A DNA stretch of 64,000 nucleotides from Pseudomicrostroma phylloplanum (taxonomy: Eukaryota; Basidiomycota; Exobasidiomycetes; Microstromatales), in assembly GCA_039545275.1 (NCBI GenBank), contig BCHS01000001.1, positions 2,000,853 to 2,064,852 of the forward strand, read 5' to 3'. How positions within the stretch are numbered: the first letter of the stretch is position 1; each line of letters starts with the position of its first letter. This document shows positions 30,605 to 58,077 of the stretch, one piece after another. The position numbers and the translations under genes were made by a program. The notes under the pieces were generated by a model. That model was not told where the DNA came from, did not search any database, and saw only the letters and a program-made list of their open reading frames with translations.

Positions 30605-32142
30605 CTATCCAGCATGGTCCTCGGAGTATGTGGTCTCTTCGTCCGTATCGTCATTGACCTCCGCATTCTTCTTCACGTAGTAGGCTAGAGGCGGCCTCCT
30701 GGTGACGTCCGCATGCAGGAACAGGGTCCACTCGGCTGCATTTCCCTGTCCGTCTTGCACCTCAGCTGGCGTTGCCCTGACTGGGAGCGTGAACCCCAGC
30801 TGTTCACCTTGCGCAGTGCCCGTCTTCGCCCGCGAGACGCTGGTGTGAAGATATCGACGCGAGTCTCCCTTTTGGATGATTGCCACAGGTACCGCATATG
30901 CGCCTTGAAGCAAAGATTCAAGCATTGCTTGACGCCTGCGACCGTCGCTGTCGCTGCCCTCTTCGTCTTCATCGGTGTCTTCGTCTTCGTGTTCGTCTTC
31001 CTCGACGACGACGATGATAACAGCCTCCTCCTCCTCAGCCTCCTCCTCCTCCTCGCCGTGGTAGTCGGAATACGCTTGCTCTTCGCTGGTGTGATCAGCA
31101 TCAATTAGATCTTCACCGTCATCGTTGAGATCGTTGAGATCGTCTTGAGCGGCAGCGTCCCCGGTGCCGAGCGCAAGACGTGCCATTTGCTCGTGCACGA
31201 ACACCCACTAGGGAGAGGTCGTGGTGGCACAAAAGCGGAACTCTGCTCTTGTGTCTCGATGTACTCCACCTTGATGAAGAGCAACGTCCCTTCGACCAAC
31301 TCGAGCTCTGTATTGGTGATCCTTTGAAAAGGATGCCAACCGGCCTCCGTCACTGCGCGCATCCTGAGCTTGTATTTGCTTCCACTTTGGAGCCCCAGAC
31401 TGGGTACCAGCCAGGTGGGGAGCGCCGGACACACTTGGTCAGTGACGAAGAAGTGCACCCTCCAGGTACCGGTCCCACTTTCCTGGAAGAGCTCCCTGAC
31501 GAGCGGCAGCTTGTGCTCGGATATGTAGTGGATCTGCGCGCAGAGGAGAGGACGAGCCTTTCCGGTCGACTCCACAATCCAACGCTCCACCCAGGCTGAA
31601 AGCTTGCCTGTGCCCACCACTGCCCTTCTTCCCTGCTCGTCTTGATGCACAACTTCACCAGAGACTTCCTCGAGGAAGGAGCCTCCTGGGAAGCGCATTC
31701 GCTTGCCCTTTGAAGTAGGCGGACGTCCATATCGAAGGTGCCTGGTCTGATTGAAATCACCGCGGATGCCGTTGAGGACATTGGCTCCGTCGATGTCCAT
31801 CATTCCATTGCCGAGGATGGTCTTCCATCGGGCCATGTACTGATCGCCCTGGTGGCAGGATCCCATGGCTGCGATCAATGTAGCCTCTATCAAGGAGCAG
31901 AGCGTGTTGCGTAGATTTGCAGCAGGCTCCGCGATCGGCTCGGCGTAACGGACGATGAATGGAATTGTACCATTCGTTGTTGAGAGGCAGAGCGAGTAGC
32001 GAGATGGCAGCAAAGGAAGTCTATGCAGCCAGTAGGGTTTAGACCACTGGAGAGAGTGTGTGCATGTGCGCTGGGCGTCCTCTTCGGATTCGTCGGTCCA
32101 TGTCTTGTGCCTCTGACAGACACTGGCAATTGCTCTTTCCAC
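30605..32142 (-). pseudogene. Island nuclease family copy P1, 5'-truncated
   Basis: Read on the minus strand it begins inside the family's GIY-YIG region: the GIY and YIG strands are absent, but the block with the conserved Glu (LRNTLCSLIEA) is present. It then keeps GANVLNGI, FLEEVSGEVVHQDE, the QRIT module (GWHPFQRITN), an acidic linker of Glu/Asp runs, and the ADVT module (LFLHADVTRRPP, YYVKKNAE), ending at 30605. A one-base frame change near 31230-31250 and an in-frame TAG just after (the family reads Gly-Gly there) break it. Upstream sequence to 32.5 kb shows no missing N-terminus. This is a decayed copy. Confidence 0.72.
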
Positions 32143-34535
32143 GAGGAAGACTGGCTGTGCTCATGCTTGCTGCGTGGTCCGCTGCAGAAGTGTCGCTTAC
32201 TCGTCTTGCGTATTGCCTAGGTTGAGTCTTGTCTATCGGAGTGGGTGATGCATCTGGTGTCAGCTCATGTGTAAACAAGCATTGCGTGCGATAGGCGTCA
32301 AGTTCGATGCGGGACACTCACCCTTCCTATAGAGCCTATAGAGCAAGAGACAATTGGGTAGACAGCTCCAAGGCATAGCGTATGCGGCCCAGCTATTCAT
32401 TCTCTGGATGTATGCCAGGTACTGTAGCAGCAGCCTTCGGCTGTAGGTGCCTCTCGGGTTCGGTAAGGCCCAATTATCTAGCACAATAGAAGAAGATGGA
32501 TGTCCAGTATCAGTGCGGACTCTCATTGCTGCGGCATTGAAACAAGCGTTGAAGCGAAAATACGACGCTCTCCACGCTTACACAGTAACTCACCTTCCTG
32601 GATTGCCATTGAGGCATCGCCATATGGTGTTGCGCCCAGGTGCAACGTATCTTCATCGTTACGAGGTAAGATAAGGTCAGTGAAGTAGCCGATAGCTTGA
32701 CGGAGTTGTGCGATGGCTTTCTTGGGCGAGTGGGTATACTTGCGTATGTCACTGAGATATCGATGTGCTGTCAGCCAGAGACCAGCCCTCTGCAGCGAGA
32801 GAGGTAGGAGAAGTGTGGCTACGCAAGACTTGTCAGTGCCAGTCAGTGTCGACTTTGAGGTCGAACAGCGATACAGTACTCACAGAGTAGATGGGGAGCT
32901 CTACTGAGACGCTCAGCTGCAGTCCATGGCGCTTTGCTCAGCTGTGCCTGTGACGAGCAGCAGAGGAAGGGCGGTGAGGCAGGAAGAGTTGGAGCTTATA
33001 CAGTACAGTAGTGTTATGCGACAGAGCGATGCGAAGGGGCATTACTGCGGGTGTTAAGCTAGAGAAAGACGAATAAGGACGAGGAAAGGTGAATGTTGGT
33101 GGAGGTGAAGATGCAAAGGAGGTCAAGAATGCCTCGTTGCTGCGTATTNCCCCTGTGACTGAGCGACCCGCCTCGCCCACTGCCCTCAGCCACCCTCGGG
33201 CCGATGGTTGCGGGCGTATAGTGGTTCTCCGCCCAGACGGAGAAGACTACAGCATGACTAAGGAAAGGGGCAAGAGCTATACAACGGGGGCTCCTCAGTA
33301 CCGGTGATCGACGTAGAGACCGAAGGAATGGTCGCTCATCCCTCACCTTCGTGAGGCTCAGTCGCCATCTATCCCGTACGGTATAAGCATAGCGCCGGAG
33401 CACAACTTCCTTTTTCGTGTGCGGGAGAAAAACAGACTATTCACCTCCCTGAGCCCTCTGAGCCGACGTCCGAGCCAACGTCCAAAGGGTATCCGAGCCT
33501 CTACCTACAAGATTCACTCAACCATGCTCGAATAGCAATCCAAGGTCTACTGTACAGCAAGGCCCTTGCGGGGTCTTCTGCAGATACTGTACCTTCCCAT
33601 CGCTCGACTCAACTGGACCAGGACGGAGACTCTACGCCCTGTACCGATACACTACGTTGCACTCTCAGCCTGGACAGCCAGAGACTCTCACCATCTCATG
33701 CTACGATCCGCTCAATGTCTCTCTCTAAAGACAGTCTCTCTCTCTCTCTCTCTCTCCCTTGTTACCACCACGTCCGCCGTGCAACGCCCAAATCCACTCA
33801 GAGCCGGCGAGCGCCACGAGCCTCTGCCTGCTGTATTGGAACAAGGACACACTCAACCAGCCATGCGCGTAGCCTCCTCCTCCTCCTCCTCCTCCTCAAC
33901 GACACCCAATATACTCATCTCTCTTTCCTCTGTGTGCCATACTGTACCACTCTGCCCGCCCTTTCGTCTACGAGCCCTGCTCACGACTCTGTCAGCCGAC
34001 ACAGAGCGGCGCAGCAGCGATTCGAGCAGTCGATGTCGATGCGTCATGGGACGAACGTTCAAGCGCTCTCATCTCTGTACCGTAGGCCTTACGCACCGCT
34101 TGCTCTGCTCAGTTCACCATCGAACGGAATCTAGCTAGACTACAGTACCCTACTTCGACACAAAACACTAGACTTTGCACTGCTGAGGAGGACTTGCGAG
34201 CCGGCGCAACATGTGAGCTGAGCTGCCAACCTACGCTTCGCTGTATCACTGCACTGTACTGTAGCCCTTAGTCGAAGCTCCTCCCCGTCCTTGCAAGGCT
34301 GGATGTGTACAATGGAATGCTTCATGGGCTTCTCAAGGTTACAGTACCTACCAATCTCGGTCTGTGATCCGATGTCTTCATCTATCGCCACCTCTCTGTA
34401 CAGTAGCTTGCTAGGCTCCATGGACGTGCGGTGACAAGAGAATGCATTTCAAGGTCTGTAAGCATGTTGGGGCATGTCATCTAAGCAAGAATACAGAGGC
34501 TGGCTTTAAGGCGACTGTCCGTAATCGCTCCGTTC
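32143..34535. other. Island spacer, no gene seen
   Basis: Holds one reverse copy of a dispersed GC-rich motif (about 33190-33226), CT microsatellites (33727-33760, 33862-33900) and, between 33.5 and 34.45 kb, many copies of the half-palindrome CTGTAC/GTACAG. No exon resembles the nuclease family or a known protein. Confidence 0.45.
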
Positions 34536-37500
34536 TTACTCCTCATCCGAATCCTCATCCCAATCGGACATCGAGTCGTACTCAGAGTCGTACTCCGAGT
34601 CACTTCCATCCTGAGAGTCATACGTGCCATCTTCCCCTCCAGTCTGGTCATCGGCATCGCGTTCCCCTTCTTCCTCGTCTGCCCTCTCACTTAAAGTACC
34701 ACCCCCTCGCGGAGTGTAGCCCTTTTTCCAGTACTTGGTGGGCATTCTGACCCCCTGTAAGGATGCCGAGACAGAAGCAGGACGGGACAGCGTGAGATGG
34801 AAGGGAAGGGCAACGTACTGTCAAGTCCACATTCCGATGGACACGGATAATCCCATCTCGACTCACCTTGTCCTCGAGGCTCTTGCCGCGCCTCCCAGCA
34901 TCCGGACTGATCTGGTCGAGGTAACGCGAGATGCTGAGGTCGTCTCGTGCAGCAGACCTGATGAGGTTGAAGGGGGTGAATAGGACGCGGAGGTTGCCAA
35001 TGGTGTAATGGCCATCGGGGTCCAGCCGGTCCAGGCTCGCCGGGCTAATAGACAAGCGGACGCCAGAGGGGTCCAGGTACTCCTGATCAGATACGAGGCT
35101 GAATGATGTGTTCGGACGCGTATAGGGGATCGTGTCAGTATCAAGCAAGTGCATAGCCCGCTGTGTTAACACGACGGACTTACCTAGCCTTGATGAGCGC
35201 GACGAGCTCCTTCTCCGTTACCTGAACTTTCTTTACCTTCCTCTTGAGGTACCGTCCTCGTGCCTGATCTCGCTTCAGCTGCTTGATGCTTGTCTGGATC
35301 GACCTGAGCTCCTTGACCGCCCATGTCTGCTCGCCGACAGTCTGCCAAGTCTTGCTACCCTTCGCTCGAGCAGTAAGAACGCTGCGAGCCTCGTCGTACG
35401 CCCAGGTGTACTCCGACGCGGCCTTCTCCCCTTTGCGGAGGAAGCCGGGCGTCCTCATGAGAGCGCACGTCCTGGCACACAGGCTCAGCCTCGGGCCGCA
35501 CTTGAGACCCTCTGTCGTCAATGCCTCGACCTTTCGGAGCGCTACGAGGCTGAAGCGCAGCTTCTTCGGCTCGACTTGCTGGTCCAGCTGCTCTGCAGCG
35601 GAGAGCTCGCTGTGCTTGGCCAGGGAGTGGTCCACGAAAGCCTGCTTCTCCACGAGCTGCCACTTTTTGCTGCCCTCCCTCTTGACGCCGAGAGTCTTAG
35701 ACTTCACGTCGAGATGCACAGTCCAAGTCGTCGTCGAAGTGATGGGTAATGGGCACGCCTTACCGAACAGGTACAAAGTTGGGCTAGACGTCGTGAGCTC
35801 ACCCTTGAGAAGCCGGATCAAAGTTTGTACCGTATCGCTACGGAAAATCTTCTTCTGCTCAACCGGCGCCTCCCATGCCACGCCCTGTACGGCGGCCAGG
35901 CAGCGTAGCACCCTCTCCCTGGTCCCACCTCCAGAGACGAGTGGCTCGAAGGCGGAGAGGTTTGGCCGCTCGGTCGGCTTCGCGTCCTTTTTGACGAGGA
36001 ACCTGATGGGATGAGCGGCTTTGACGTCTCACCACAGGTAGATTGCGTAAGAACTGATGTCCTCGTGCCCAGATCTGACGCTCGGAGGAATCGCTGCAGA
36101 GGGGAGACAGATGTACTGATTCCATGTCCTGCTGCTGCCGTTGGACAATCTTGGCATCGTGATGCGGACTCTCAGACCCATGTTCCTCCGATCCAGCATG
36201 GCTGGCCCTTGCCAGGAACCCCTTGCCATCGTTTCGAAGGTGGCGCCCTGCTCATCTTCGACAGACGGCCTACGCGACCTGGCTGCTCTTCGTCGTCGTC
36301 GACATCGTTGTCCTCGCCCTTGACGTCTTGAGCTCCGTCTTCACTCCCTTCACCGTCCTCCCCTTCTTCGTCTTCCTCATATTCTTTTTCGTCTTGTTCG
36401 CCGCTTTCATCGCTCTCGTCATCTTCGTCGTCGTGCTCTTGACCATGCTCTTCCGCATCCTGCTCTACCCTTTCCACCGTCGGGGAACCTTCGTATGCAG
36501 TCAGTGAGCGCGCGACTCGCTGATGCAAGAACACCCCACCAGGTGTCGCAGTCTGTGCGCAGAAACGATGTCCTGCTGACTGCTTGTTGGCACGTCCGAC
36601 GGGGGCAATGCTGGCATAGATGCACGACCCTTTGACGCTTTCTGCGTCAGCATCCGTGATCCTCTGGAAAGGGAACCAGTCAGCTTCTATAGAGAGCCGT
36701 AACGAGATGCGGGACTTCTGTCCGGGTCGTAGTACAAGCGCAGAAGCCAGCCAAGAGGGCAGAGAGAGGCATTCTCTTGCCGAAGGGTACACCTTGACCT
36801 TCCAAGTCTTCGAGTAGGGGCCCTCGAAGAGCTCTTTGGTCAAGGGCAGTTGATGCTGCACCAGATAGTCGATCTCAGCTGCAAGAAGGGCGCGATCGAG
36901 GTTCAATTTACCTCCCAACCATCGTTTGACGAAGGTGTCGAGTGGAGCGTCCCCTACAGTCGCTCTTACGCCCTTCTCGTCTTGATGGACGATCGTCTTG
37001 CCGTCCTCCTCCAGAAAGGCTCCCCATCGGAGCGTGCAGCGCTTGCTTTGCGACTGGAAAGCTTCGCGCAGGCGCTTCGTCGACTTGAAGTTGCCTTCGA
37101 GCGCACTCTGGGTGTTGGCCCCGTTGATCTCGGCCATATCATCACCGAAGGTCTTAGCCCATAGCCTGTCATATGTCTTGCCATTGTGAGTGCCCATGGC
37201 GACGATGAAAGCCGCTTCGAAAGTGGAACACAAGGTGTTCCGGAGATCCATGCTCACCTCATCCTCGATGTCTTCCTTTGGTCTTCCGCTCGCCAGGTTG
37301 AGGTCTCTATACTTCGTTGTGTACCAATCAAGTGATGCTGGCAGAGACAGAGTAGCAATGGCTGCGAAGCTGATGGCGTCGGGGGAGCGTCTGGCCAGCA
37401 CTATCTTCGCCTGACAATTTGGGTCCTTGTAGCTGCGACTCCACTGGCGTTGGCGGGCTCTTACGCCACAGTCCGACTTGCCGACGTACACAGACGGCTT

Positions 37501-38352
37501 TGTACCATTATGTCTGACCACCTGGATGTAGAGGCCAGGGCCAGCGTGCTCTTCTGCACTGCGACTGATCTAACCGGCTTCGATCACGCTTCTGCCATGG
37601 GAGACGACAGCGGACACTGCTTTGTCCGACATGGAGTCGACAGCGAGTCGGGCCAGGATGTCTGCATCTACGCTGCCCCAGTGGCGAGAGGCCTCGGAGC
37701 ATCCCCGAACCCGATACCTGGCGGGATCCGAGGTCAGCTCCCTGCACATCAGAATGCCCTTCGTGATGCGCTCGGCACATTGTGCTCTTGCGTTCTGCGA
37801 TGTTCTAGCGGTCGAAGATGAAGGCGAAGGACTGGGGTGCCTGCAGTCAGAGAAAGTACCAGTGAAGCAAGGCACAGGCATCGGGCTCGACTCACTCCTC
37901 GTCTCCTTCCGCTCGTACTCTCTTCGATGCAGGAGCCTTGATGGCATCCTCGTCGGCAATCCTCTTGTGCCCTTGTACATCTCCTTCACCCGCACGCGCA
38001 TGGGAGCCAGACCCGGAAGCGCGACCGAAGTCGTTGTGGCCTCCTGATCGGGAGGGCAGGCCAGAGGGGAAGGCGGAGGAGGCCATACTGAAGAAGTCCG
38101 TTACCTTGGAACTCCCGATCGCCGCTGCAGGTTTGATCAGGTACGAGGGTGACTTTCGCCTTGCACCCTCAGCAGCGGCGTTCCACTTCAGATTCTTGAG
38201 GACGCTCGGGGTAGGGGGACGAACAACGGGGAGACGCAGCGAGCAGACGCTGGTGGGGAAATCGCCTGGGGGAGAGGCGAAGACGGTGGAGCGTCCTCTG
38301 TCTCAGCAGCAGGCGAAGAGGCAGTAAGATCAATGACCTTTCGGTCAGTCAT
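34536..38352 (-). pseudogene. Island nuclease family copy E: GIY-YIG plus HNH, nearly full length
   Basis: The most complete copy. Exon 1 (38352-37896) starts MTDRKVIDLTASSP (SUMO-interaction-like VIDLT), then SSKVTDFFSMASS (PIP-box-like) and a KRIADED...KRVRAEGDEE basic signal. Exon 2 (37840-35184) holds the HWG module (SRHWGSVDADIL), GIY-YIG elements GPGLYIQVV, SVYVGKSD, Arg eight residues on, and the Glu block LRNTLCSTFEAAF; then FLEEDGKTIVHQDE, QRIT (DWFPFQRITDAD), a Glu/Asp linker, the ADVT module and two Trp repeats. Exon 3 (35098-34867) is an HNH-type core, SLDRLDPDGHYTIGN. Exon 4 (34754-34536) is a basic then acidic tail. All three junctions keep phase. Four lesions: frameshift near 38.2-38.29 kb, TAG 37570-37572, frameshift in the acidic repeat near 36.24-36.29 kb, TGA 36029-36031. 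Confidence 0.75.
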
Positions 38353-38355
38353 GAG

Positions 38356-38715
38356 TGTGTAAGTGTGTGGCTTGGACTTGAAGTTGCCTTCCAGTGCACT
38401 CTGCGTGTTGATCCCGTTCACCTTGGCTATATTACCACCAAAGGTCTTCGCCCACAGCCTGTTGTATGTCTTGCCGCTGGGGCTGCCCATGGCTTCGAGT
38501 GTTGAACACAATGCGTCCCGTAGGTCCAAGTTGTCCTCCTCTTCCTCGAGGTGTCTCTCCGCTCTTCCGCCGGCAAGATTGACGTCTCTATGAGTGGCTG
38601 TATACGATTGAAGTGGTGCGGGTAGAGCCACAGCAGCAATGGCTGCGACTTCGGCCCATCGTCTTGCTACTGAGATCTTGGCACTCAAATCCGATGTGTT
38701 GAATTGATACTTCAA
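38356..38715 (-). pseudogene. Island nuclease family fragment D
   Basis: A fragment joined head-on to the start of copy E. It covers the second half of the GIY-YIG region (SAKISVARR, ATHRDVNLAGGR), the Glu block with an internal deletion (LRDALCSTLEAMG), and NGINTQSALEGNFKS, and then runs without a gap into the MTDRKV start of copy E. Both ends are truncated within coding modules. Confidence 0.7.
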
Positions 38716-38857
38716 GATTCCCTTTGGTCGATGTGAAGGCTGTAATGCTCTTGTTGTGTATAGTCCCAGCTATGGGGGAGGTGCAGGTGTGTATAGTCCC
38801 AGCTATGGACAAGGCGTCGCATTACGCAGGTCTGACCTGTGCAATTGATGCGCGACC

Positions 38858-42079: not shown

Positions 42080-42673
42080 TTGTATCCTCGACCAGAAGTT
42101 GCCCCTCCGACGTCGAGCCTTCCCGAAGAGAGTTGGAAGAGACATCTTGCATCAAAGCAAGCGCGGCGGTTCGATACAGTATTGCTGGGTCGGCACCCGA
42201 GTTTGCATTTGTTTCTCAAGGGCCATTGTCACAAGGCCAAGACTATCCCATTGGCCCTCCTCCGAGCCCAGGTCGACCTCTCACTAGACAGGGATACCAA
42301 GGATCCCATTCGGCTCATTGTCGAAACACGGCAGTGGCACAGGAAGACGAGGTTCGAAGCAAGCTGGCGCCACCCTCACGTCCCAGTCTTGACCATCCGC
42401 GATGACCATGTAGACCGGCTGGGACTTCGAACGGCCAACGACTCCATCGAGCTGCGTTTCGAGTCGGAAGAGGGCTGGTTCCCTTTTCAGCGCATCACAG
42501 TGCCTGGGTCTTCTCAGACGATCAAATACTTCAGAGACCTGCTGCGACAAGCTCTACTGCTGTTGCATCGCGATCATGGGACTCTCGAACACCACTCAGC
42601 GGCCCATCCGTTCAAGACTCTGTGGTCACTCGAATTCGCCTGTTTCCACGAAGACAAGGAGCGAGCATCATGA
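42080..42673 (+). pseudogene. Island nuclease family, divergent QRIT-module fragment
   Basis: Plus-strand frame whose second half matches the family's QRIT module: a stretch ending LGLRTANDSIELRFESEEG, then GWFPFQRITVPG. The matching block in other copies is the one preceding the acidic linker. It is more divergent than the minus-strand copies. The beginning shares the AVFLYPQP-encoding motif found elsewhere in the island. It is followed by a stop and by nuclease remnants, so probably non-functional alone. Confidence 0.55.
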
Positions 42674-42762
42674 AGGCTGGCTTCTCTTATCCTTGACCGT
42701 GTTGTATCCTCAGTACTCACAAGAGCCGAAGCTAGGCTAAAGCAGCGCTTACATGGCCAGCA

Positions 42763-42948
42763 GTGCTACCCTTCCATGACCGTGATCGCAAGATGACCGT
42801 GATTACAATACACTCTGCGATTAACACGGCAAAGGGTCCAAGACTGTCCCGCAGGCTCTCACAAGAGCACAGAGCCCTCTGGTACTCGACAGCAGACGCA
42901 AAGAGCTGTCTACTCGAAGCTGCCTTCATAGCAGCTATGGGAAGCTGA
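42763..42948 (+). pseudogene. GIY-YIG domain remnant
   Basis: A short plus-strand remnant with the family's Glu block, KSCLLEAAFIAAMGS, ending in a stop directly after it. Copies A and P1 read LCSLLEAAFIAAVG and LCSLIEATLIAAMG at this point. Stops interrupt the flanks. The GIY and YIG strands are not visible. Confidence 0.6.
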
Positions 42949-43389
42949 CAGCGAATAACGAGCTACGAGGACCAATGAACGACAGCCTTCGGAGAGAGCA
43001 GGCTGAACACCGCGAGCGCCCTGCCAACTACCGTGTGTGCAATCGCACCCGGGCAAGGATCTTGAGGAATACCAAGGCTTTCCTGATGCAGAACTTTCAG
43101 AGAGGAAGGCGAATCAGCCCCTTGCCAGCGCTATCGCTCAACAGAGGCTGTTTTGCCCTACACATGAAGCCTTTGACAGAGCGTCAAAGACAACAGAAAT
43201 GGTATCAATCACTGTGTCAAGAACCTCACACTTGCCTTCGCCAGCATGCCTGGCTGCGCTTCCTCTTCCCTCGAGTGCGAATTTTGATTCCCTCGAGGCT
43301 GTACATGCCTCCTCTTCTCAGGACAGTGTGGCAGGAACCTTCCTCTTCCACCGACCCCTCAACCCACTGTCTTCAAGACAGTCCAGCCT

Positions 43390-45784
43390 TCTCCCTTCTC
43401 CTCTTCTACCGAGCCGGAGAGCGAGGATGACCTCTCGGTGCCTCGACTTCGTCGTATTCGTCATCATCGAGCGATCAGAAGGACTTGTCTGGCTTCGGCT
43501 TCCAGCGAGTCGAGCGACATCGACATTCTCGCTCCTCCGCGACCTCTCTCCGTTCAGCGCCCGAAGCCTGCGCCTACTCCCCTTCTCCGTCACCCTTTTT
43601 CGGACGAAGAAGACGAACACGACCTCCTTGCCTGGCCTCTCAAACCACGTGCTCTTGCCGCTGCGCCTCCTGCTGTCCCTCAAGCCGACTTCCTACTTGC
43701 ACCACCTGCTGGACTGCTAGAGAGATTGGCTGGTATGGACACCAGGGTTGCTGGTCGTATCAGCCAGGTCGCAGTGGACGCAATCAGTGCAGCGGCGGAC
43801 CTCGAGCCAGGAATCTCGGCAATACCCCTTGTGTATCAAGGCAGCGACGAGTTTCTGTTGTGCTGGTGAGTGCCTTCGAGTCCTGCGCTACCTCTGCATC
43901 GGCTCCTGACTGCTTCTTCGCTGCTTCTCCTCTTTGCTCAGGCGCTATTACTTCAACAAGGTCAAGACGCTCTCGGACGCTCAGCAGGCCAAGTACGTCG
44001 AGTATGCCAAGCTCCTTGCCAGATGCGAGCTCTACAGGATCAGCTGGAACCTTCACAAAGCAGCATCTAGTCGTCAAAGCTGGCTGCAGCTGCTCGCGGA
44101 GGTAAGCAAGGCGTACGACGTCTGGAAGGTCTTCAGTGGCGTTCTAGGCTGCAAGACCAACGCCACGGGCTCGAAGGTCGCTCGGAGGATGGTTGAGACT
44201 GCGGAGTCGCTGGACAAGCTCACATGGAAGGCCCAGGTCAGTCTAGAGGTCTCTCAACGGGCCTGTCCCCTAGTCCACCGTCACTGACTACTGAATCCTC
44301 ATTCTCGCTCCTTGATCCACTCAGATCCTCGGTCAACGCCCTCATCAAGACATCAAGCTCTTTTTGGACAGAGTCGAAGCTGCAGCTTATGCTCCTGCCG
44401 CTCCGACTGGTGTTCGTCCTGCTGCCCCTGCGCCCGTCCCATACCCGTCCATCAGCCTCCCAGCCGGTCTCCCCAAATGGGAGAAGTGCCAGTACAGTAC
44501 GAACTCACCTTCATGCCTGCACTACAGTCTGCCATCGAGGCCAATCCTGTTGGCGTTCAGGACTACAAGAGGGCTGACGTCGCCGCTGTCATTGCCTGTG
44601 TCCTGACCCAGGCCACCGAGGAGATCAACAAGCAGGCTCTGTGGACTGGCGTGCCCCATGCTGCTCTGGTCACCGCCTTGGTCGGACTTAGCAGGCGGCT
44701 CGCTGCAGACAGCGCTGCGTGGCGCGAGGTGACATTGGCACAGCTTCTGTCCTCGGGAGACTTGGCTGGATACACAGCTCAAAGGCAGGCCTACGCTCGA
44801 ACTTCTACCGACTATAAGGCCACCCATTCTCGCACCTCCACCAAGCAGCAGCGACGCTGACCCAGCGCGCAAGGCATCAAGGGCGAGAAGACGTTCTTCC
44901 GAGTGCTCGCAAATCAGGCCGTCAAGCGCGACAAGTCGGTCAAGGTCGAGGACCGAAAGGCCACTCGAGAGTGAGTAGCGACGTGTGTCAACGGGACTAC
45001 AGCCGAGTTGTCAGTCGCTGACGGTCCTCTTGTACCCCTCTGACGGTCGCTTCCAGCGATGTCTGCAAGATCATGCGGAAGCTCTTCGCCAAAGACCGCC
45101 ATTGCAAGCTCTGCAATGTCGAGTTGACTCTGCCTTCGCCTGGTGGAACGAACGCAGACATCGGCCTCGCTGGAGGTACCCGTCCGGATGCCCCCAGCAT
45201 CGATGCCATCAAGCCTCGCGTGGCTCGGGCTAGGTACGAGGAAGGGAACATCCAGGTGAGTGATTCATCTCTCATTGCGTCTCTAGTAATACGTCCCGCA
45301 CGCGACCGTTGCTGACCCATGACCGCCTCATCTTCGCATCAGCTTCTTTGTGCTTGCTGCAACTACGTCAAGTTCTCCCTGGAGCACGACGCCGCGCACG
45401 TCTTGGTGGGCCGTATTTGTAGTGAAGCCGATTGGACATGTGTTATGCTCGCCCAATCATTCACCACCAGCCGAGTCTTAGCAAGCTTGGATTGGACTTA
45501 CCCCGGAGGTCATCACACGCCTCATCAAGAAGGACGTTATGCTCAAGAGGCCGGATGTCGCTCGCCTTTGGCCCTTCATGTCATTGAGGGAACCAGAGAA
45601 TCGGTCACTAGACAATAGAGTCTGCACAAGGACAACAGCAGCCCGCCTCACCTCTACGGTCTACTCGCTGGTACTACAATACGCTTCGAAAACTTCGGCC
45701 AGCTCGTGGTCAGCGAGGTACGACGACACGGAGGACCAAGACAACACCGAACCGCAGAGCGGCCTTCAAAAGCAATATCAATGA
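43390..45784 (+). pseudogene. HNH-type nuclease gene with zinc-ligand cysteines
   Basis: Plus-strand gene built from about six blocks: to 43865, 43942-44236, 44325-44970, 45057-45255, 45343-45405, 45482-45784, with canonical splice sites. The 5' end is unclear. Early blocks are Pro-rich then helical (LSDAQQAKYVEYAKLLAR). The HNH core has CKLCN, SIDAIKP, YEEGNIQLLCACCNYVK, so two CxxC pairs and the Asp and Asn of the SxDxIxP...GNxQ variant. A helical segment (LTPEVITRLIKKDVMLKR) follows. Two lesions: a one-base frame change near 44475, where PKWEKCQ and VPVQYELTF meet, and an in-frame TGA at 44858-44860 with conserved-looking sequence (GIKGEKTFFRVLANQAVK) after it. The HNH call is sound; whether it is active is doubtful. 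Confidence 0.65.
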
Positions 45785-45823
45785 GCTTTCGAGGCTATAC
45801 TTCGAGGGAGCTACCAGCGCCCC

Positions 45824-46444
45824 TTGACCTGGACTCGCGCTGGGCTAAGCACGCCGGTGACTCTACCGGTGGAAGACGAGTCGCAGTCGAATTGGCGGCG
45901 CTACCAAAACAATGTCTTCCTGTTCAGCTGGGCCGTGCCTGATGCCGTTAGAAACGGGGAGGAGAACCTCAGCTCATACGTTGTCTTCTTCTGGGCCGAC
46001 GTCACTGCCGAGCACCCACTCAAGTCTCTCACCAAGAAGGACGCTGAGCTCACCGAGAGGCCTAACAAGCCCCTCTTTCAACCTCTGCTGACGTCTGGAG
46101 ATGTGATCAAGCGGCTGCTGGACGTCTTGGCCTCCGTACAAGGGCAACCACGATGTCCCTCCCTGCTACAACATGCTAGATGGCAGAGCGACATCTTAAG
46201 GACGCTCGAGTTGCTCCTGGTCGGTATGGCCAGTGGGGAGTTCTGCATGTTCATGCAGACCTGCCGGGCGGTAGGGAGTAGGGCGAAGGAGGTGAGGGGG
46301 GCCCGATGGCAGTGGTGGTTCGAGGAAAGGACCAGCCAGCTGAAGTCGAGGCTGGTCGGAAGCTCGGAATGGCAGGCGGTCGAAAAGCCAGACATCGTCG
46401 CGGTGCTTGCCAGCAAGTATCAAGGGGAGCGTGGGATAGTCTAG
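45824..46444 (+). pseudogene. Island family ADVT module plus Trp repeat
   Basis: Plus-strand frame homologous to the C-terminal half of copy E: ENLSSYVVFFWADVTAEHP, LTERPNKPLFQPL, then one Trp repeat (RTLELLLVG ... RWQWWFEERTSQLKSRL, GSSEWQAVEK). At the ADVT site it reads Trp-Ala-Asp where copy E reads Trp-stop-Asp, which shows that the copy E stop is a substitution. It follows the HNH gene, so module order here differs from copy E. Confidence 0.6.
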
Positions 46445-46745
46445 ACGTAGTCATTTCAATACTGTAGACATAAATGTTGATCTCTCAAACCCAATCTTGT
46501 CCCGCTTTATACCCCCGAGCATCTCGATCCAGTTACATCTCCAAGTACGATACCAAGACGATGTGAGTTTGAATAATTACTGTACAGTACGGTGCATGGC
46601 TATCTTCCCTTGACTGTACTTCTGTCATGTCAGCTGCCTTCACCTAGCTGACAAGCGTTGCTCAAGAGCCGACAAGCTCCGCTGCAGTCTACATTGGGCG
46701 AAGTGTTTGAGATTGATGGACATCTTTCTCATCGTACAGTGCCTG

Positions 46746-48540
46746 CTACGGGTCTACAGCGACTCTTCCAATCCCTTGTCCCTTCTTCTTCACCATGGTC
46801 AAGCCTTCGGATGTGAGGTCGCGGACCAACTGACAGTCCGGGACAACGTGCCAGAGATGTAACGATAGGGTCAAGGGGAAGTCCAAAAGGACTTCGATTC
46901 CTGCTGAGAGAATCTCTAGCCTGCTTTCGAGACGATACTGTAGTCTGGCCTCGCGCAAGTCGGCCATCCTTCTCGAAAGCGAGTGCTGACGTACAGGACC
47001 GTGTGGTTGACATTGCCTTGATCCATCGCACCGTAGGCAGGGACAAAGTCTCGCATTGCGGACCTCGTATCGTCGATTGCTCTGTCGATGGTGGCTTCGG
47101 CTTCGGCTGCTGGCGGGTCCACCTGTCCCTGTGAGGTAGGCTTTCTGGCCTGTTCCCAAAGTCCACGATCAGGAGGATTCTATGAGAGCACGAAAGACTG
47201 CCAATGTTTACATCGTTCAGGTCTCTGTAGTGGAAACCTTTGGTTGCGAGCATGTCGGTTCTGTGTGCAACCTGCAGATGGATGTCTACTAGGAGCTGCG
47301 GAAGAGTTTGCTCCTGATGTGAGCTCCGAGGAAGTGTTGTGAGATCCACGAAGAGCGCCAACGTCGCCCTTGTTGAGGTCTCGGTAATGGCTTGCTAGCA
47401 AGTGATCTTGCTGTGCAACCTGCGAATGGATCTCCACCAGCGACTTGGCGCCCGATGTAACTTCCAAGAAGATCTTACTCAAAGAAGACTGCCAATGTTT
47501 CCGTCGTTCAAGTCCCTGTAGTGGAGAGCTTTGACTGCGAGCATGTCAGCTCGCTGTGCAACCTGCAGATGAATGTCGTCTAGCAGATGGGGAAGGTTTG
47601 GCTCCCGATGTGACCTCCAAGCAATATGAGAGCAACAAAAAGTGCGATCATCACCTTCGTTGAGGTCTCGGTAGTGGTGGCCTCCTTTTGCAAGGATGTG
47701 CAAGCTGTCGATGGATACCACAAGGCGATGCTGGAAGACTTAGCCCCCGATGTGGCCTCAGGGGGACATGAGAGCAACGAAGAAGGCGAATGTTGCCATC
47801 GTTTAGGTCTCGGTAATGAGAGCCTTTGCTTGCTAGCGAATCATTTTGCTGTGCAACCTGCAAGTGGATATCCACCAGCGACTTTGCTCCCGATGTGACT
47901 TCCAAGAAGCTTTTACTCTATGAGAGCAAAGAAGACTGCCAATGTTGCCTGCATTGAGGTCCCGGTGGCGAAGACCTCCGGTTGCCGGCAGGTGAGACTG
48001 CTGTGCAACTTGCAGATGGATGTCCACTAGCCACTTGGCTTCCGATGTGACCTTCAAGAAGATGGTATATGAGCGACAAAGTTTGCGGTAACTGCCTTCA
48101 TTAAGGTCTCGGTCGTGGCATCGGGCTTCTACAAGGAGGTGTAGCTGCTCTGCAAGCTGCAGATAGATGTACACAAGATCATGCGGTGAGACTTGGCTCC
48201 CGATGTGTCCTCGAGGGAGCATGAGAGCGATGCAGACTACGAGAGTGCAGTCCTTCAGATCTCGGTGGTGATATCCTCCCTTCGCAAGGATGTGCAACTC
48301 TCCTGCAAGCTGCCGATGGATACACACAAGGTTGTGCGGGAAGACTCGGCTTCCGATGTGACCTCCAAGGAAACGCTGATGCAGCGAACACAGCGAATGT
48401 TTCCCTCATTCAGATTCCAGTAATGGAACCCTGCCTCTGCAAGCATCAGCAGCTGCTGCGCAAGCACCAGATGGATATCCGCGGGTGATGCTGCTGATTT
48501 GGTCACCGAAGTGATTCGCAAAATTCTGCTTGGTCACCAG
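46746..48540 (-). pseudogene. Minus-strand gene of tandem HYRDLN units ending in the family C-terminus
   Basis: Nine repeat units (listed separately) read on the minus strand and run into a segment that ends LHLWHVVPDCQLVRDL, matching the C-terminus of copy G (WHVVPDCRLVRILLED). Unit length is not a multiple of three throughout, so the reading frame changes several times; introns between units or decay would both explain this. Upstream, a block KLKWLEETRFCSSDSLQSG and KQNFANHFGDQI (about 48640-48500) may be the preceding exon. Confidence 0.45.
47190..48530 (-). repeat. Nine tandem units of about 149 bp
   Basis: Anchor TGCAACCTG/TGCAAGCTG recurs at 47266, 47414, 47557, 47699, 47852, 48004, 48151, 48304 and about 48459, spacings 142-155 bp. 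Each unit on the minus strand encodes close variants of VTSGAKS, DIHLQVAQQ, LLA, and HYRDLNEGNIG. Units are diverged at many positions, so the array is old. Confidence 0.88.
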
Positions 48541-51500: not shown

Positions 51501-51974
51501 GCCTCTCTCGAGCAAAGGTCCTCAACATCAACCCTCAAACAGTCGACCAGCAACAGTACACGAGCGCTCTGTGGTCGCATCCGTGGGGCGCTGCCTCGCT
51601 GCGAAGGCACGCTGGACCTCCCAAGTCCCTTCGTCTCGGGAACGCTCGGCATCGAGGCGCAGCTTGTGCTGCGCCCACTCAAGACTCTCGGCCCCACGAG
51701 TGCAGACCTTGAAGGCAGTTGGAGGAGAGATATCATGGCTACCTCAGGGCAGCTGTACTTGCAGCACCCTTCCCGTCTGCGAGGTACCCCTCGCAGACCA
51801 TAGCCCCTTGCAGACCACAGCACTGGCTCGATGGATTCAATTTCGAACGTGTCTATTTCGCAGTGTGAGGAGCCTCGGAGCATACTCAACATCAGACATC
51901 TTGTAACTCAATCTTGTCAGTACAGCCTCGCAATCCGAACTTCTTCATCAGGTAGACCGTATGTTCTAACGAGC
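48541..51974. other. Island spacer, possible decayed exons
   Basis: Minus-strand blocks with protein-like composition occur at about 49585-49392 (VVAHISDSTMTDPER before a gtgagt donor) and 49337-49099 (LLNGPFVLRSVLPLHPLASE), but their phases do not join. On the plus strand at 51.1-51.5 kb a frame contains LPLLYIGSTCEIR, reminiscent of a YIG strand. The forward motif copies at 50406-50427 and 50571-50612 also lie here. None is supported as a gene. Confidence 0.35.
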
Positions 51975-52095
51975 CCTCCTAGCTGAGTCGGTGCTCAGAG
52001 GCAGCGGCGATGATCTCCTTCTGTGAAGGTTTCATCAGACAGAGATCGACATGCGATCATCGCCGCTGCCTCTGAGCATCGACTCAGCTAGGAGG
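51975..52095. repeat. Inverted repeat, 41-bp arms
   Basis: Arms 51975-52015 and 52055-52095 are reverse complements with one mismatch (40 of 41), separated by 39 bp. The arms begin CCTCCTAGCTGAGTCG. No clear target-site duplication flanks it. Transcription would give a long, near-perfect hairpin. Confidence 0.92.
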
Positions 52096-52353
52096 TGCGA
52101 AGGCATCAATGCGAGAGACTGTACCTTACCCATACCCATTACTCTCTCACACTGAGCAAGCTCTCGCTTTAATGAATGTCATTGTACGGTCTTTACATTT
52201 ACTATTTGTAGATAACAGTGAGCTACTATACTGTAGCGTTATGAGCTTGAACTGTAAGCTTAGTTATGTCTAGAGTGCCGTCCCTGTTCCTCCTACTATC
52301 GTCGTTAATCGGACATGTTCGCGAGAATCCCTGTCTTCCATCTTCCTCCTCCC

Positions 52354-53685
52354 CTACTCCTCCTCCCGCTCCCCCTCCATCTCCTCCATGCGCCCGTGGT
52401 CCTCTAGCAGGATTCGGACCAACCGGCAGTCCGGCACCACGTGCCAGTCTGGAGATGGCTGCTTCCTCACTCTCAGCCGCCCTCTCTGTACTTCGAGGTG
52501 CCACAGCCACTTTTCCCCCCTCGCCCTGTCCTCAATGCCAACGTCCTTGAGCTTAACATGCTCGTCGAAGTAGCTGAGCTGGGGCCCCTGCTCGAAGACT
52601 CCAGCTGCAAGCTGCCTGAGCTTCGCGAGGCTCGGGGCGTTGAGCTTCCGGACGCGGGGAGCAGCGTTGAGGGCTCTGGTACGCTCGGCGGGGGTGATGG
52701 TGGCGCAGTAGCGAGCCAGCCACTGGACAAAGTGAGTGTCCTCCACCGCGGTCCAAGTGTCGCTCCCCTTTGCCCGAGCAGAGAGCACACCGGATTCCTC
52801 GTTGAGGGTCCATTGCGAATGAGTGTCTAGTGCCTGCTAGTGAGCTGTCGACGTCGGCGCTAGGCCCTGAGCACACTCTCTCGGCGTTGGGCCACGAGTG
52901 CCGTATGTCGGCATTGGGGCCTAGCCACTGTATGTCGACATTGGTACCTGGTATCCGGTCGTATGCCTGGTGCCCTGAGCGCCGTATGTCTGCACTGATG
53001 AACTGGCGGCGAGTGTAGGCACCGGTACCTGCCTGAGACGAGTGGGTTGGCGCGGCGGACCCTCTTTGAGAGGGTGTATAGGATCACTGAAGGGACGCTT
53101 GGGGTGTAGGTTTGATGGAGGTGAAGGTTGATGAAGGTGTAGGCGGAGCAGAGGAAGTGGGAAGCTCTGCCTCTGGAGAGGAGTTTTACGGAGCCCTGTC
53201 TGCAGTACTAGGGGAGACGGCGTTAACTTGAATCACCTGGTAGCGTGCTCCTGGCCCTCAGAGGCCACCATCCTCGAAGTCAGTCGTCTCCGATAAGTGG
53301 GACTCCTTTCCGCCTAGCTTGAGAAGTGACGAGCCCTCGTGACCACCCTGGACCAGAGGCAACAGAAAGCGAAGCTGCTTGACCCCAACCTTTCCAATCG
53401 GCTCCTCTTCCTCCTCCCCCTCCTCCTCCACGAGCGCAGGAGCTGTCTGGCCCGGCTCAAGGCTGAGCTCCTCTATGAGCTCACCGAAGTTACTGCCGGT
53501 AGTCTCGAAGTTGGTGAAGTCTTCGAGGGCAGGTCTCTCCGTGAGCCCCGCATTCTTCTTGATGAGTTATGATAGTGGCGCTCGCTTGGTCACGTTGCCG
53601 TGTAGGAAGACCGTGTAGTTTGCAGCGTCTCCAGGCTCAACTTGCAGCTCTGGCGCTGTTGTTCTCATCAGGAGGTCCTTCTCCT
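52354..53685 (-). pseudogene. Island nuclease family copy G (C-terminal part)
   Basis: Read from 53685 down: ADVT module (PELQVEPGD, VFLHGNVTKRAP, then TAA, LIKKNAGLTERP), an acidic stretch, first Trp repeat (KQLRFLLPLVQGG, LLKLGGKESHL) to a TGA, then about 400 bp of foreign sequence (53235-52830), and then the rest of the repeat (WTLNEESGVLSARAKGSDTW), the second Trp repeat and the C-terminal WHVVPDCRLVRILLED, ending at 52354. Two in-frame stops and an insertion make it a pseudogene. It supplies the natural C-terminus of the Trp-repeat form. Confidence 0.7.
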
Positions 53686-54717
53686 CGCCCTGAGTACTTC
53701 ACTGGGCACATCCCAGTGCCAAACCCATGCCCCTCGTCTTGCAGGGTTCCGAATGCCGACATTGCTAAGCTTGAGCGTCTCGTTGAAGTAGCCCAGGGTT
53801 GCCTGACCCTGGTGAGTGCCAGCGACAAGTGCTCGGAGCTTGTTGCGCGTAGGCGCAGGAAAGCGTCTGGCTTGAGGCGCGGTACTCGAGTGTTGGATTC
53901 GCTCTGCTGGCGTCAGTGTTGCTGCGAGCTGTGCGAGCCAGCGGATGAAGTCTCCGTCGTCGACGACTGTCCATGTCTCTGTGCCCTTAGCCCGAGCGGA
54001 GAGCAGGCCGGACGTCTCGTCGAAGCGCCATTCATAGCGTGCTCTCCGAGTGCCACCGTCGGCTGAGTAGCTCGTGCTACTGAGACTACACTCCCTCCCT
54101 CCAAGCTTGAGGATGGTGGAGCCCTCGTAACTCCCTTCGAGCAGAGCCACCAGGCTACGAATCTGCCTTACGCCGATCCGACCAAGAGAGTCGACGGCAT
54201 CTTCTTGCTGCTGTCCAACCGGCTCGCCTTGACTAGGCTCAGCTGCTCGAGCAGTGCCTCGAACCAGCTCCCTCGTACGTCGCAAGGCTTAAAGAGCGCT
54301 GCGTCCGGACGCTCTGTGAGTCCGGCATTCTTCTTGACGAAGAATGAGATTGGCGGCCTCTCCGTCACGTCTGCCTTCAGAAAGAGCGTATGGCCTGCCG
54401 CACTTTCCACTCCGGAGAAGTGCACCTGTTCGGCAGTGTGAAGCCTGCATTCATCAGGTGCCCGTCTCGGCCCGAGATTGCGATAGTTGCTCCACTTGCC
54501 AGAGCCCGGCCGCCGCCGCCTTCAAGAGTGAGGGGACATGCAAAGCTGCCTCGCAGTAGAGTCTTCAACGTCGCTTGAGCGCTTCGCTTCTGGCGTGCAG
54601 AGTGCAAGTCCTCTTGTTGCCCGTTGCGTATGTTGGCCTTCACCTTTGTTGGCTGCTCATCCTGCTCGCAGGTGCTGAGGCCTTGTGGTTGAATCGCAAT
54701 GAGATCCGGTACTCGGA
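53686..54717 (-). pseudogene. Island nuclease family copy F (middle to Trp repeats)
   Basis: Begins inside the QRIT module (SEYRISLRFNHKA), immediately fused to copy A's end. It continues through TLKTLLRGSFACPL, FTLPN, frame change, LFLKADVTERPP, FVKKNAGLTERP, another frame change near 54195, then both Trp repeats: VALLEGSYEGST...YEWRFDETSGLLSARAKG and LRALVAGTHQGQ...WVWHWDVPSEVLRAR. It ends at a stop at 53668 where copy G takes over. Two frameshifts. Confidence 0.7.
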
Positions 54718-56600
54718 CATGATGTGAAGCGCAGCCGATGCTGGCGTATCCTGGAGCTCTGGAGGGGTTGCCCGCACCGGCAAAGTAAAAGAGATGTTGG
54801 GTCGTCTGCCGTTCGTCTTTGGGAGGCCAACGGTCACGTGCAGAGACCAAGCTCGGCCTAGCTGACCACCTATAAGCGAGCCAAGGACTGCGTATGAGCC
54901 TCGCAGTAGGGTCTGCAGTGCTGCAGTGCGCCTGCGCTCGACGCGGGTGTCGTCTTCCATGGTCTCTTGATCGTCCTGCTCCTCGCTGGCTCCGCTTTCG
55001 AGTCCTGTCCCGTCCGAGTCCTCCGTCTCATTGTCCTCCCAGCCTCGAAGCCCGTAGATTCCTTCCTCCTTGCGCTTCAGTGCCTCTGCCACTGTCTTGG
55101 GGATCAGCATCCAGTGGTCGGATGCGAATACGGCGCAGAAGGGCACTTGCTCGCACCTCTCGCCGGACTCCGTGTCGATTGACTGCACGGTGATATGGGC
55201 TCCTTCGACAGCAGCGGCGTCCTCGTCGGTGATTCGCTGGAGCGGGAACCAGCCGACTTGGTGCGAGAAGCGGAAAGACATCTGATATCGTCGACCAGTC
55301 TGAAGTCCTAGCTCCTCGTGAAGCCACTTTGGTAGCGCAGGGTATAGGTGGCAGGTTGTTGGCCACACTACAGCCCATTCGCTGCCAAAGTCTTCGGTCA
55401 GATCACGCATTATCTCGTGTTCTGGACCCTGCTTCACCGCATACTCGATCTCGGCGGCAATGAGCACCGATCCGATGTCGAGCGAGGTACCGAAGTAGGC
55501 GGCGACAAAGTCTTGAAGCGAGCCTTGCCCTACGACGGTCCTCTTCTGCGCTACGCTGCTGTGCACGACGTCATTGCCCACTGTCTCGAGGTAGGCGCCT
55601 CTTCGGAGGTGCACCTTTTCAGCTCGCGGAGTCAGACCTTCCCGCACACGTCTTGAAGAGCAAAAGTTGCCGGGAATCCCATCTTGATAATTTGCGCCGG
55701 CAATATCAAACATTCCGTCACCGAAGACAGTCCTCCAACGAGCCACGTAAGAGTCTCTTCCTTGGCACGTCCCGACTGCTGCGATGAAGGCCGCCTCCAA
55801 GAGGGAGCAGAGCGTGTTACGCAGATCGAGGGCAGGCTCCTCTGCGGGTCGTAGCAGTCCGCTCTGCTCGTGCAGAGCTCCATGGCTTGCGGTGTACCAG
55901 GTTTCCTCAGCAGGCAGTGGGAGCAGAGCGACTGCCGCAAAGGTCGTGGCGGAAGGGTCTAGGCGCGCCTGCACTATCCTCGCAGGTGTACCCTTCGCCT
56001 TTCCGTCCCTGGCTCGTCGGTATGCCGTCTGCCAGCCTTGCTGCCTGACCTTCACGCTGACATCCGACTTGCCAACATAAACCGTCCGAGGCGAGGTGCC
56101 TGCTACCACCTGCAGGTACAAGCCTGGTCCTTGATGCGTCTCTGCAGTCTTTGACTCGGGCTGTTCGCTGACGATACTTGCTCCTCGGGAGGTCAGAGCC
56201 TTGACTGCCTCGTCTGACATGCAACTGAGCGCCATTTCGGCAAGCACATCGGACTTGACACGACCCCAGTGTCGGTGGCCTTCCGGACATCTCCTGAACT
56301 CCCTTGATGTCGACGAGGCCAGTGCTCGGCACAGATCGAGACCCTTGGTGACTTGCGCCTTGGCGAACGTCCTGGTGGTTGCGATGATGCTGAGGGTTGA
56401 CAATGGTTCTGGTAAGCTACGATCGAGCGAAAGTGGACTCGTAGCAAGTAACTCACGATCCGGCACCTGTGTTGCTCGCCTTCTTCGAGGCAGGAGCCTC
56501 TGACAGGTCCTCCTCCTCGGCAATCCGCTTCTTGCCCACCAAGTTTCCTTCGATCTCCGAGCCAGCCGCATTGTCTACCACTCCAAATCGGACTGCAGAG
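54640..56600 (-). CDS. Island nuclease family copy A, intact GIY-YIG exon
   Basis: Exon 2 (56389 to 54640) is open for about 580 residues. Order: HWG module (HRHWGRVKSDVLAEMAL, MSDEAV), GIY-YIG elements GPGLYLQVVAG, TVYVGKSD, an Arg eight residues on, Glu block LCSLLEAAF; then FCSSRRVREGL, AYLETVGNDVVHSS, QRIT (GWFPLQRITDED), acidic linker, ALQTLLRGSYAV and the start of the ADVT module, and then a fused tail SEYRISLRF from copy F to a stop. Only the tail of its own first exon survives (about 56600-56457; KKRIAEEEDLSEAP basic signal, gtgag donor). The exon 2 acceptor needs a phase-2 donor, which the exons 1 of copies B and C also provide. This is the copy most likely to be active. Confidence 0.65.
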
Positions 56601-57478
56601 CAACGAGGTGATTGCAACAAAGGTCTTCGCTTCAGGGTACAGCCGTGCTTCTACGATCTTGGCCGGCTGTCCCTTGTACCAGGGCTGCTTGGCTTTGTTG
56701 TAGCTGTACGTCCAGGCTACCTGCCGCTGCTTGACGCTAACGTCGGACTTGCGAACGTATGCCGTGTAGGGGGCTGTCCCTGTGACGACCTGCAGGTAGA
56801 GCCCCGGACCGTCGTGTTGCTCAGCTGTCATACTTCCTGCCGCCACACTTCGGCCACGCGTCAATAGCGCATTGATGGCCTCGTTGGACATGTGCTCCAC
56901 AGCCAGTCTAGCAAGGGAGCGGGAGCTGCACTTGCCCCAATGCTCCTTTCCTACCTGGCAGAAGCGGAAGCCGCGCAGGTTTCTGATAAAGTCAATCGCC
57001 TTGCTGATGATTTTGGAGCAGGTCTCTCTCTTGCTGTCCGTTACCCTATTCAACGAGTGACAAGAGGATTCAGAAACCCGCTACTGGTCAGTACATCCCT
57101 GATATCAGGCGAGATGCAAGAGAGGGGCCAACTCACCCTTCCTGCTCCTCCACTCGCTGTCTCTTGGAGGATGGAGCCTCCGAGGCCTCTTCTTCATGAA
57201 CCCTCTTGCTGTTTCCGCTCCCCGACCCCGAAGCAGCTGACCCGAAGAAGTCCGTCAGCTTCCTGCCGCCTCCTGTGGCTGCTTTCTCGATGGTACGAGG
57301 CGCTCTTGGCCTCTTAGGCTGGTGAGCCTGAGGATCCCAACGGAGTGGGAGTGGGGCGGTAGCTCCAGCGGCAGTGAAAGCGGCAGCAGGTTGACGAGGA
57401 GGACGCATCGGAGCAGGGGCAGGAGGCGCAGGAGATGCGGGTGGAGAGATGGCCTCGGTGCATGCTGGCGGCGGCACA
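56600..57478 (-). pseudogene. Island nuclease family copy B (first exon to mid GIY-YIG)
   Basis: Exon 1 (about 57478-57137) carries LPLRWDP, the PIP-like GRKLTDFFGSAASGS and SKRVHEEE...SKRQRVEEQEG. Intron 57136-57046. Exon 2 from 57045: CSKIISKAIDFIRNLRG, KEHWGKCSSRSLARL, MSNEAINALLTRG, GPGLYLQVVTG, TAYVRKSD. The Gly of YVG is replaced by Arg. After AITSLL the sequence passes directly into copy A's first-exon tail, so the Glu block is missing and B alone cannot encode a nuclease. Confidence 0.7.
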
Positions 57479-58077
57479 GACCTTGTAGCCCCGGAGCGTC
57501 CGCACGAAGTTGATTGCCTTGGTGATCATCATGACACAAGCATCCTTTCTAAAGATCAACACGAACGAAGCCATCTTCCGGTGAGCAAAATCTGATCCGA
57601 GCGAAGCACAAGTGCCAAGTCAACTCACCCTGCATGATTCCCCATTCTCGCCTTCTTAGGAGCAGGAGCATCCAAAGCCTCTTCTTCGGCAAGTCGCTCC
57701 TTGCCTCTTGAGCTTCCTCCGATCTCTAAGCCAGACACATCGCCTCCAGTAGGTCTTGAATCGGATCCCGATGCAACAGGAGCAAAGAGGGCCGTGAGCT
57801 TCCTGGTCCCTTCCGCTGCTTTGGCGGGGATGCTGGGACCGGCCCTTTGCTTCCTGGATGGGTCAGCAGCAGGGTCCCAGCGAAGCGTGACAGGAGCTGG
57901 GACAGGAGCAGGGGCGGAAAGACGGCGAGGGGCGCGAGGAGGAGAGGAAGGAGGTGTCTCACCAGCCCCGATCCACTCGGGGAGAGGAGAAGAGGGCATC
58001 GCAGCCTCTGCCTCAGGAGCAGGAGAAGAGGCGGTGAGATCAATAAGCTCTTGGTTGTGGCTATTTGCTGAATGCAT
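57479..58077 (-). pseudogene. Island nuclease family copy C (promoter-proximal first exon)
   Basis: Exon 1 (58077-57629, 449 nt, ends in phase 2) encodes MHSANSHNQELIDLTASSP (SUMO-interaction-like LIDLT), Pro/Ser-rich sequence, VTLRWDPAAD, the PIP-like TRKLTALFAPVASG, and ERLAEEEALDAPAPKKARMG as basic signal, with a gtgagt donor. About 30 residues of exon 2 follow (CVMMITKAINFVRTLRGYKVC) before the sequence switches into copy B's first exon at about 57478. The first exon is intact and has its own start. Confidence 0.68.

Follow-up and report, generated by a model that had tools for sequence, protein, structure and literature searches.

A decaying cluster of a multicopy, predicted GIY-YIG nuclease gene family in Pseudomicrostroma phylloplanum

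The window analyzed here is a 64,000-nucleotide stretch of the basidiomycete Pseudomicrostroma phylloplanum (genome G000, 17.08 Mb on 20 contigs; contig C1, positions 2000853-2064852), in which a cluster of genes and gene fragments with a predicted GIY-YIG nuclease core is flanked by a histidine-phosphatase gene (Pfam His_Phos_2, open reading frame (ORF) 28828-30075, + strand) and an OPT transporter gene (58401-60737, - strand). Module seeds of this family were searched against the window by tblastn at E 0.01 or better; many seeds were drawn from the window itself, so that their own places match by construction. Forty-four of the 48 merged module matches fell within 30.6-58.1 kb; the four others, weak matches outside the cluster (E 2e-5 to 0.003), were excluded before counting. 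The first half of the GIY core was found at three places inside the cluster, its second half (LEA) at five, QRIT at four, ADVT at six, the Trp repeat at nine and HWG at five (one weak, one partial). Exon 1 had three strong places and three weak + strand ones (E 0.001 to 0.006), the latter not counted as parts, and there were three places for the upstream exons of double-HNH genes, one each for HNH1 and HNH2, and one merged block of kinase-like repeats. Together the matches trace eight or more copies or fragments of the GIY family, with both strands represented (Table 1), as a preliminary description of this DNA had claimed. The module order it proposed, from HWG through GIY-YIG, QRIT, linker and ADVT to the Trp repeats, is common to the family, but the HNH tail that it placed at the end of this order follows only one of the eight units, copy C, which alone has the full order but is broken.

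Table 1. Features of the GIY-family cluster, in window positions
Feature	Positions	Strand	Extent of module matches	Basis
Copy D: second half of GIY core (LEA), QRIT, acidic linker, ADVT	30605..32160	-	30641-31920	module matches
HNH tail of copy C: linker, intron, HNH2 exon, next intron-like stretch	34650..35320	-		homology to double-HNH genes
Copy C: exon 1, intron, HWG, GIY-YIG, LEA, QRIT, acidic linker, ADVT, two Trp repeats	35321..38352	-	34867-38352 (with tail)	40% identity to copy E
Copy R: GIY-core remnant abutting copy C exon-1 start	38365..38769	-	38365 to ~38650	LEA match
QRIT (42254-42499) and LEA (42910-43020) fragments	42254..43020	+		E 5e-9 and 2e-5
Separate double-HNH gene	43360..45615	+		module matches; collinear with L033 (G000 C1:1.787 Mb)
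ADVT (45785-46141) and Trp repeat (46193-46411) of GIY family	45785..46411	+		module matches
Extra ADVT and Trp-repeat units downstream of copy E	52387..53698	-		module matches
Copy E	53671..56574	-	53671-56367	module matches plus open reading frame
Copy F: HWG and first half of GIY core, then truncated	56598..57080	-	56598-57026	module matches
Two exon-1 copies	57136..58107	-		module matches plus alignment

The window copies bear stops, frame changes or truncations, and the module matches together with the lesions of copy C bear out the description of a multicopy, decaying family. Exon 1 of copy C is followed by an intron (37895-37841) with a GTGAGT donor and a CTGCAG acceptor. Copy C is broken as it stands by two in-frame stops, a TAG (37572-37570) ahead of the GIY motif and a TGA (36031-36029) at the ADVT motif, and by two frame changes, one in the acidic linker and one in exon 1, where IDLT and the motifs resembling a PCNA-interacting peptide (PIP) and a nuclear localization signal (NLS) lie in separate frames. 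The adjoining copy R (38375-38648) shares 73% DNA identity with positions 37082-37367 of copy C and is its sister in the tree; their abutment looks like a tandem-duplication junction. Copy E retains a 644-codon open frame (54643-56574) that spans HWG (56170-56367), GIY (55912-56130), LEA (55639-55830), QRIT (55174-55473) and the linker, whereas its later modules (ADVT 54730-54936 and 54171-54521, Trp 53920-54168 and 53671-53874) lie in other frames, through mutation or unseen introns. Copy D (LEA 31732-31920, QRIT 31258-31554, ADVT 30641-30940) is 40-41% identical to copy E, and the module seeds found no first half of the GIY core in it by tblastn. The + strand QRIT and LEA fragments stand in reversed order relative to an intact copy.

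In an alignment of six rows of the family, GxY, YxGKxD and Glu were invariant in all of them, Arg was present in five (Pro in P0001) and Asn in five (Lys in the row from contig C3), residues which we take to be those of a GIY-YIG catalytic site. The predicted fold of a paralogue matched I-TevI over 90 of 94 residues, and the paralogue at C2:12k passed the cut-off of Pfam PF01541 in a six-frame search (23.8 bits versus 22.6; 19.9 bits on the whole ORF), while no window copy scanned matched PF01541. Made on a paralogue rather than on a window copy, the fold comparison did not place the YVGKS region in a non-nuclease fold and left the GIY-YIG reading standing; the core is thus predicted to be a GIY-YIG nuclease, in support of the original assignment. 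Structure predictions for the ADVT and Trp modules were of low confidence, and no fold is claimed for them. At the usual catalytic Asn the C3 gene (L030) reads GLKQD and its 96% identical relative P0003 reads GLNKD. Elsewhere in the genome, Pfam returned just one further GIY-YIG match, at C20:176573-176830 (E 3.4e-9), in an 846-codon frame.

The exon-1 alignment has six rows for five copies, the two frames of copy C taking up a row each. Four of the five carry IDLT or VDLT followed by ASSP, and all have a PIP-like stretch (KLTALF, KLTDFF, KVTDFF, KLLAFL or RITSFF), mostly without the leading Gln; one copy on contig C16 also has QSLLHDFF, a full PCNA-box pattern. KKAR, KRQR or KRVR stands close to the end of exon 1 in three copies. 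In the window, the copy at 57628-58095 (-) has IDLT, KLTALF and KKAR, and that at 57136-57525 (-) has KLTDFF and KRQR. We take these elements to be a putative SUMO-interacting motif (SIM), PIP box and NLS. The SIM/PIP/NLS exon claimed for the whole family was found in the window and C16 copies, but the C2 copies, read by eye, differ in exon 1. Spliceosome-type intron borders in copy C support nuclear genes, as had been supposed, and the nucleus is the likely place of action of the GIY-YIG genes.

The HNH module is not shared by the family in the way first proposed. In copy C, an 85-base intron (35183-35099, GTAAGT...TTCAG) leads from the Trp-repeat exon to the HNH exon, which has an HNH2 match at 34867-35091 and is succeeded by an intron-like stretch (34866-34755, GTGAGT...TTACAG). 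The C-terminal half of double-HNH genes is homologous to this tail, down to the position of the first intron; both double-HNH copies at C1:1.787-1.790 Mb have a GTAAG donor there, in the matching phase. The GIY loci examined outside the window gave no HNH match, and Pfam gave none in the three long-ORF dispersed GIY members or the Microstroma protein. Because 12 other HNH matches lie away from GIY loci, a single GIY-YIG plus HNH architecture was rejected, and locus L033 was rejected as a second fusion because its shared tail is the double-HNH linker. One family combining both nuclease types, as the preliminary description had it, is therefore not supported; the HNH module belongs to its own double-HNH family at other loci, and the two are united only in copy C, which is chimeric and disrupted.

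The window's own double-HNH gene comprises upstream exons (43360-44971), HNH1 (45049-45258) and a decayed HNH2-like stretch at about 45.5 kb, read by eye. One of six members passed Pfam PF01844 with its HNH1 (the L035 ORF, 26.6 bits versus a cut-off of 21.4); L036 (20.8) and L037 (17.2) fell below it, and L032, L034 and P0002 had no HNH match. The HNH1 and HNH2 profiles matched each other (probability 90%, E 1.5e-6), although HNH2 alone matched no HNH chain in the PDB. The canonical HNH motif has DHI at a site where HNH2 reads DAI, DRI or variants in every row of two alignments (6/6 and 8/8), so that the canonical catalytic His was not found there. The predicted double-HNH model (mean pLDDT, the predicted local distance difference test, 53) lends weak support. 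At L034 and L037 (G000 C1:1.276-1.359 Mb) there are several double-HNH-type ORFs and fragments with local repeats, so that turnover in tandem arrays seems to occur in the HNH family too.

Copy E matched 16 places in the genome at E 0.001 or better, seven in the window and nine on C16, C17 and C2; P0001 as query added C3, and the C2:12k protein added C15 and further places on C2. The family thus totals at least eight loci on six contigs, plus a weak Trp-repeat match on C11 (E 1.5e-4), all place counts being lower bounds. Outside this genome, the sole relative returned for copy E was a hypothetical protein of Microstroma glucosiphilum, an Exobasidiomycete (29% identity over 29% of the query). 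The search with the C3 copy returned P0003 (96% over 75% of the query) and P0004 (64% over 40%), and the C3 gene also has a 37-38% identical relative in Microstroma. P0001, although one of the query rows, was not recovered by the C3 search, which thus misses distant relatives, and the true spread may be wider. Pattern searches for a viral or bacterial origin gave 10, 5 and 19 matches in viral contigs and GTDB contigs, collections without fungal genomes, and none of these was confirmed as a relative. The architecture matched no named Pfam family in the proteins scanned, in keeping with the earlier statement that no named eukaryotic family is known to have both nucleases arranged in this way, and no nuclear multicopy GIY-YIG family of this kind was found in titles and abstract openings of mostly open-access literature. 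Trees separated the window and C16 copies from those of C2, C17, C3 and Microstroma (support 0.996 for the first half and 0.995 for the second); the stretches for trees and for ratios of nonsynonymous to synonymous substitution (dN/dS) were chosen by eye, and in the trees two Microstroma rows ran past a missing end anchor.

Copies E and C share 44% amino acid identity over the compared stretch, with dS of about 3 and silent sites near saturation. Set beside the 73% DNA identity of C and R, this indicates both old divergence and local duplication, and agrees with the suggestion that recent duplication alone does not account for the family. Nei-Gojobori (NG86) dN/dS was 0.15 to 0.25 in six of ten comparisons and 0.50 for C versus R, the three saturated comparisons being set aside; dS was under 1 for two of the seven finite values and 2 to 3 for the other five, which are rough. 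The one reliable intact pair, C2:12k/C2:1367k (206 codons), gave dS 0.93 and dN/dS 0.15, suggesting constraint over much of its history; C versus R (123 codons) gave dS 0.70 and dN/dS 0.50, a value that decay of either copy or of both would produce. The family has multiplied, diverged, been constrained in one pair and decayed.

Our preferred reading, held tentatively, is that the window contains a decaying cluster of a multicopy predicted GIY-YIG family, likely a nuclear DNA cutter, for which copying during break repair is a possible means of spread. Through the motifs of exon 1 (SUMO-binding-like IDLT, PCNA-box-like K(L/V)TDFF and basic NLS-like runs), the protein would reach DNA under replication or repair; where it cuts, repair from a gene-carrying chromosome would duplicate the gene at the cut site; and old copies would decay while surviving copies diverge, as proposed for the yeast WHO elements. 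A second, independent family, that of the double-HNH genes, also turns over in this region, and its C-terminal half was joined by a rearrangement to copy C, now disrupted. We infer this homing-like mode from the predicted nuclease identity, the few relatives and the resemblance of the dead-copy cluster to WHO clusters. Target-gene fragments beside the copies, which together with allele-specific cutting define the WHO type, were not recognized in the short flanks examined, the exceptions there being an upstream similarity between L011 and L012 and transporter-like ORFs common to L012 and L013. It is rather unlikely that the family is a system of a new kind, a free-standing nuclear GIY-YIG homing system with spliceosomal introns, guided by PCNA and SUMO to replication-linked breaks, copying itself between sites and recombining with a mobile double-HNH family into two-headed nucleases.

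A role for the host is almost as likely as the homing-like mode. Under this possible alternative, a nuclear structure-selective GIY-YIG enzyme, somewhat SLX1-like in acting at SUMO- and PCNA-marked sites, would serve genome maintenance or defence against foreign DNA and turn over by birth and death through unequal crossing-over, with no homing. The graded relatives of the C3 gene, the dN/dS of the reliable pair, the SIM-, PIP- and NLS-like motifs and the tandem joints argue for such an enzyme, but only three database relatives were found in a limited search, Pfam did not find the SLX1 zinc finger, the C3 copy has Lys at the usual catalytic Asn, and many copies are broken. We consider it unlikely that the interval is simply recombination-prone and piles up unrelated decaying families (GIY-YIG, double-HNH and FunK1-like kinase), the window copies being inert: the stops and frame changes of copy C, the incompleteness of D, F, R and the + strand fragments, and at least eight decayed kinase-like units at 47.2-48.5 kb are consistent with this, whereas the open frame of copy E keeps its GIY-YIG motif residues, and E/C and E/F gave dN/dS of about 0.2, values which are unreliable because dS is 2-3 and which may predate decay. 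A conflict or killer-type family, in which nuclear-targeted nucleases would act against competitors or non-inheriting nuclei much as Spok spore killers do, is very improbable; multicopy turnover, nuclear-signal-like motifs and the multiplication of nuclease and kinase-like genes in one genome fit it.

Several further features were noted. The transporter-like ORFs of L012 (6695-8125, -) and L013 (8011-9303, -), presumably of the major facilitator superfamily (MFS), are related and convergent to the GIY genes, possibly by chance; as a homing target, convergent transporter-like genes beside two GIY loci are too weak a candidate. At 47164-48506 (-), at least eight tandem units of about 150 bp resemble the catalytic loop of FunK1-like kinases (HYRDLNxGNI), a family with longer ORFs on C3, C9, C10 and C16 and sub-threshold Pfam fungal-kinase matches; the repeats could be mistaken for target-gene fragments, but they are tandem and do not alternate with nuclease copies, and no link was shown. 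A transposon, Penelope-like or other, was set aside, as no reverse transcriptase or transposase was found in the 20 window ORFs scanned (82 ORFs of at least 120 amino acids were listed), which gave one sub-threshold gag match (E 0.12). An inverted repeat at 51975-52095 (41-nt arms, 98% complementary) was rejected as an element end, since no second genome place was found, though its rarity is not thereby proven.

To our knowledge, nuclear eukaryotic GIY-YIG enzymes are few, mostly repair genes or mitochondrial strays, UMAG_11064 among them. A nuclear family in many copies, with repair-docking-like motifs, would offer a natural test case for nucleases turning selfish or domesticated, the chimeric copy C shows that genes from two nuclease-like families can fuse with an intron carried along, and the question is tractable in a small (17 Mb) genome.

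Among known systems, I-TevI and the intron-associated GIY-YIG homing endonucleases resemble the window family in predicted fold and in the motif order GxY, YxG, R, E, N; in contrast to I-TevI, the window family consists of nuclear genes with spliceosome-type introns and extra QRIT, ADVT and Trp modules, and has no known target site. For the HNH superfamily, the PacI, Cas9 and Gme HNH nucleases are among the closest. SLX1-SLX4 is a nuclear, SUMO-linked eukaryotic GIY-YIG nuclease in which SLX1 has a C-terminal zinc finger and SLX4 as its partner. The window family is likewise nuclear, eukaryotic and predicted GIY-YIG, with a SUMO-binding-like motif, but it is multicopy with few relatives found, and Pfam found no SLX1 zinc finger in P0001 or in the ORFs of L009, L012 and L030, which are single frames and could miss a further exon. 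The WHO elements of Torulaspora and Lachancea are free-standing nuclear nuclease genes that form clusters with pseudogenes and diverged copies; they encode fusions of an intein with a zinc finger, have FBA1 as their homing target and leave FBA1 fragments behind (PMC7282813). The window family is alike in its clusters of free-standing nuclear genes, pseudogenes and diverged copies, and no WHO/HO intein-type domain with zinc finger was matched by Pfam in the members scanned. UMAG_11064 of Ustilago maydis is an inactivated nuclear GIY-YIG sequence, a single insertion derived from a mitochondrial intron in a telomeric region (PMC7593156); both are nuclear GIY-YIG sequences of Ustilaginomycotina that have suffered inactivation, but the window family, unlike UMAG_11064, is diverged and multicopy, has spliceosome-type introns and reaches Microstroma.
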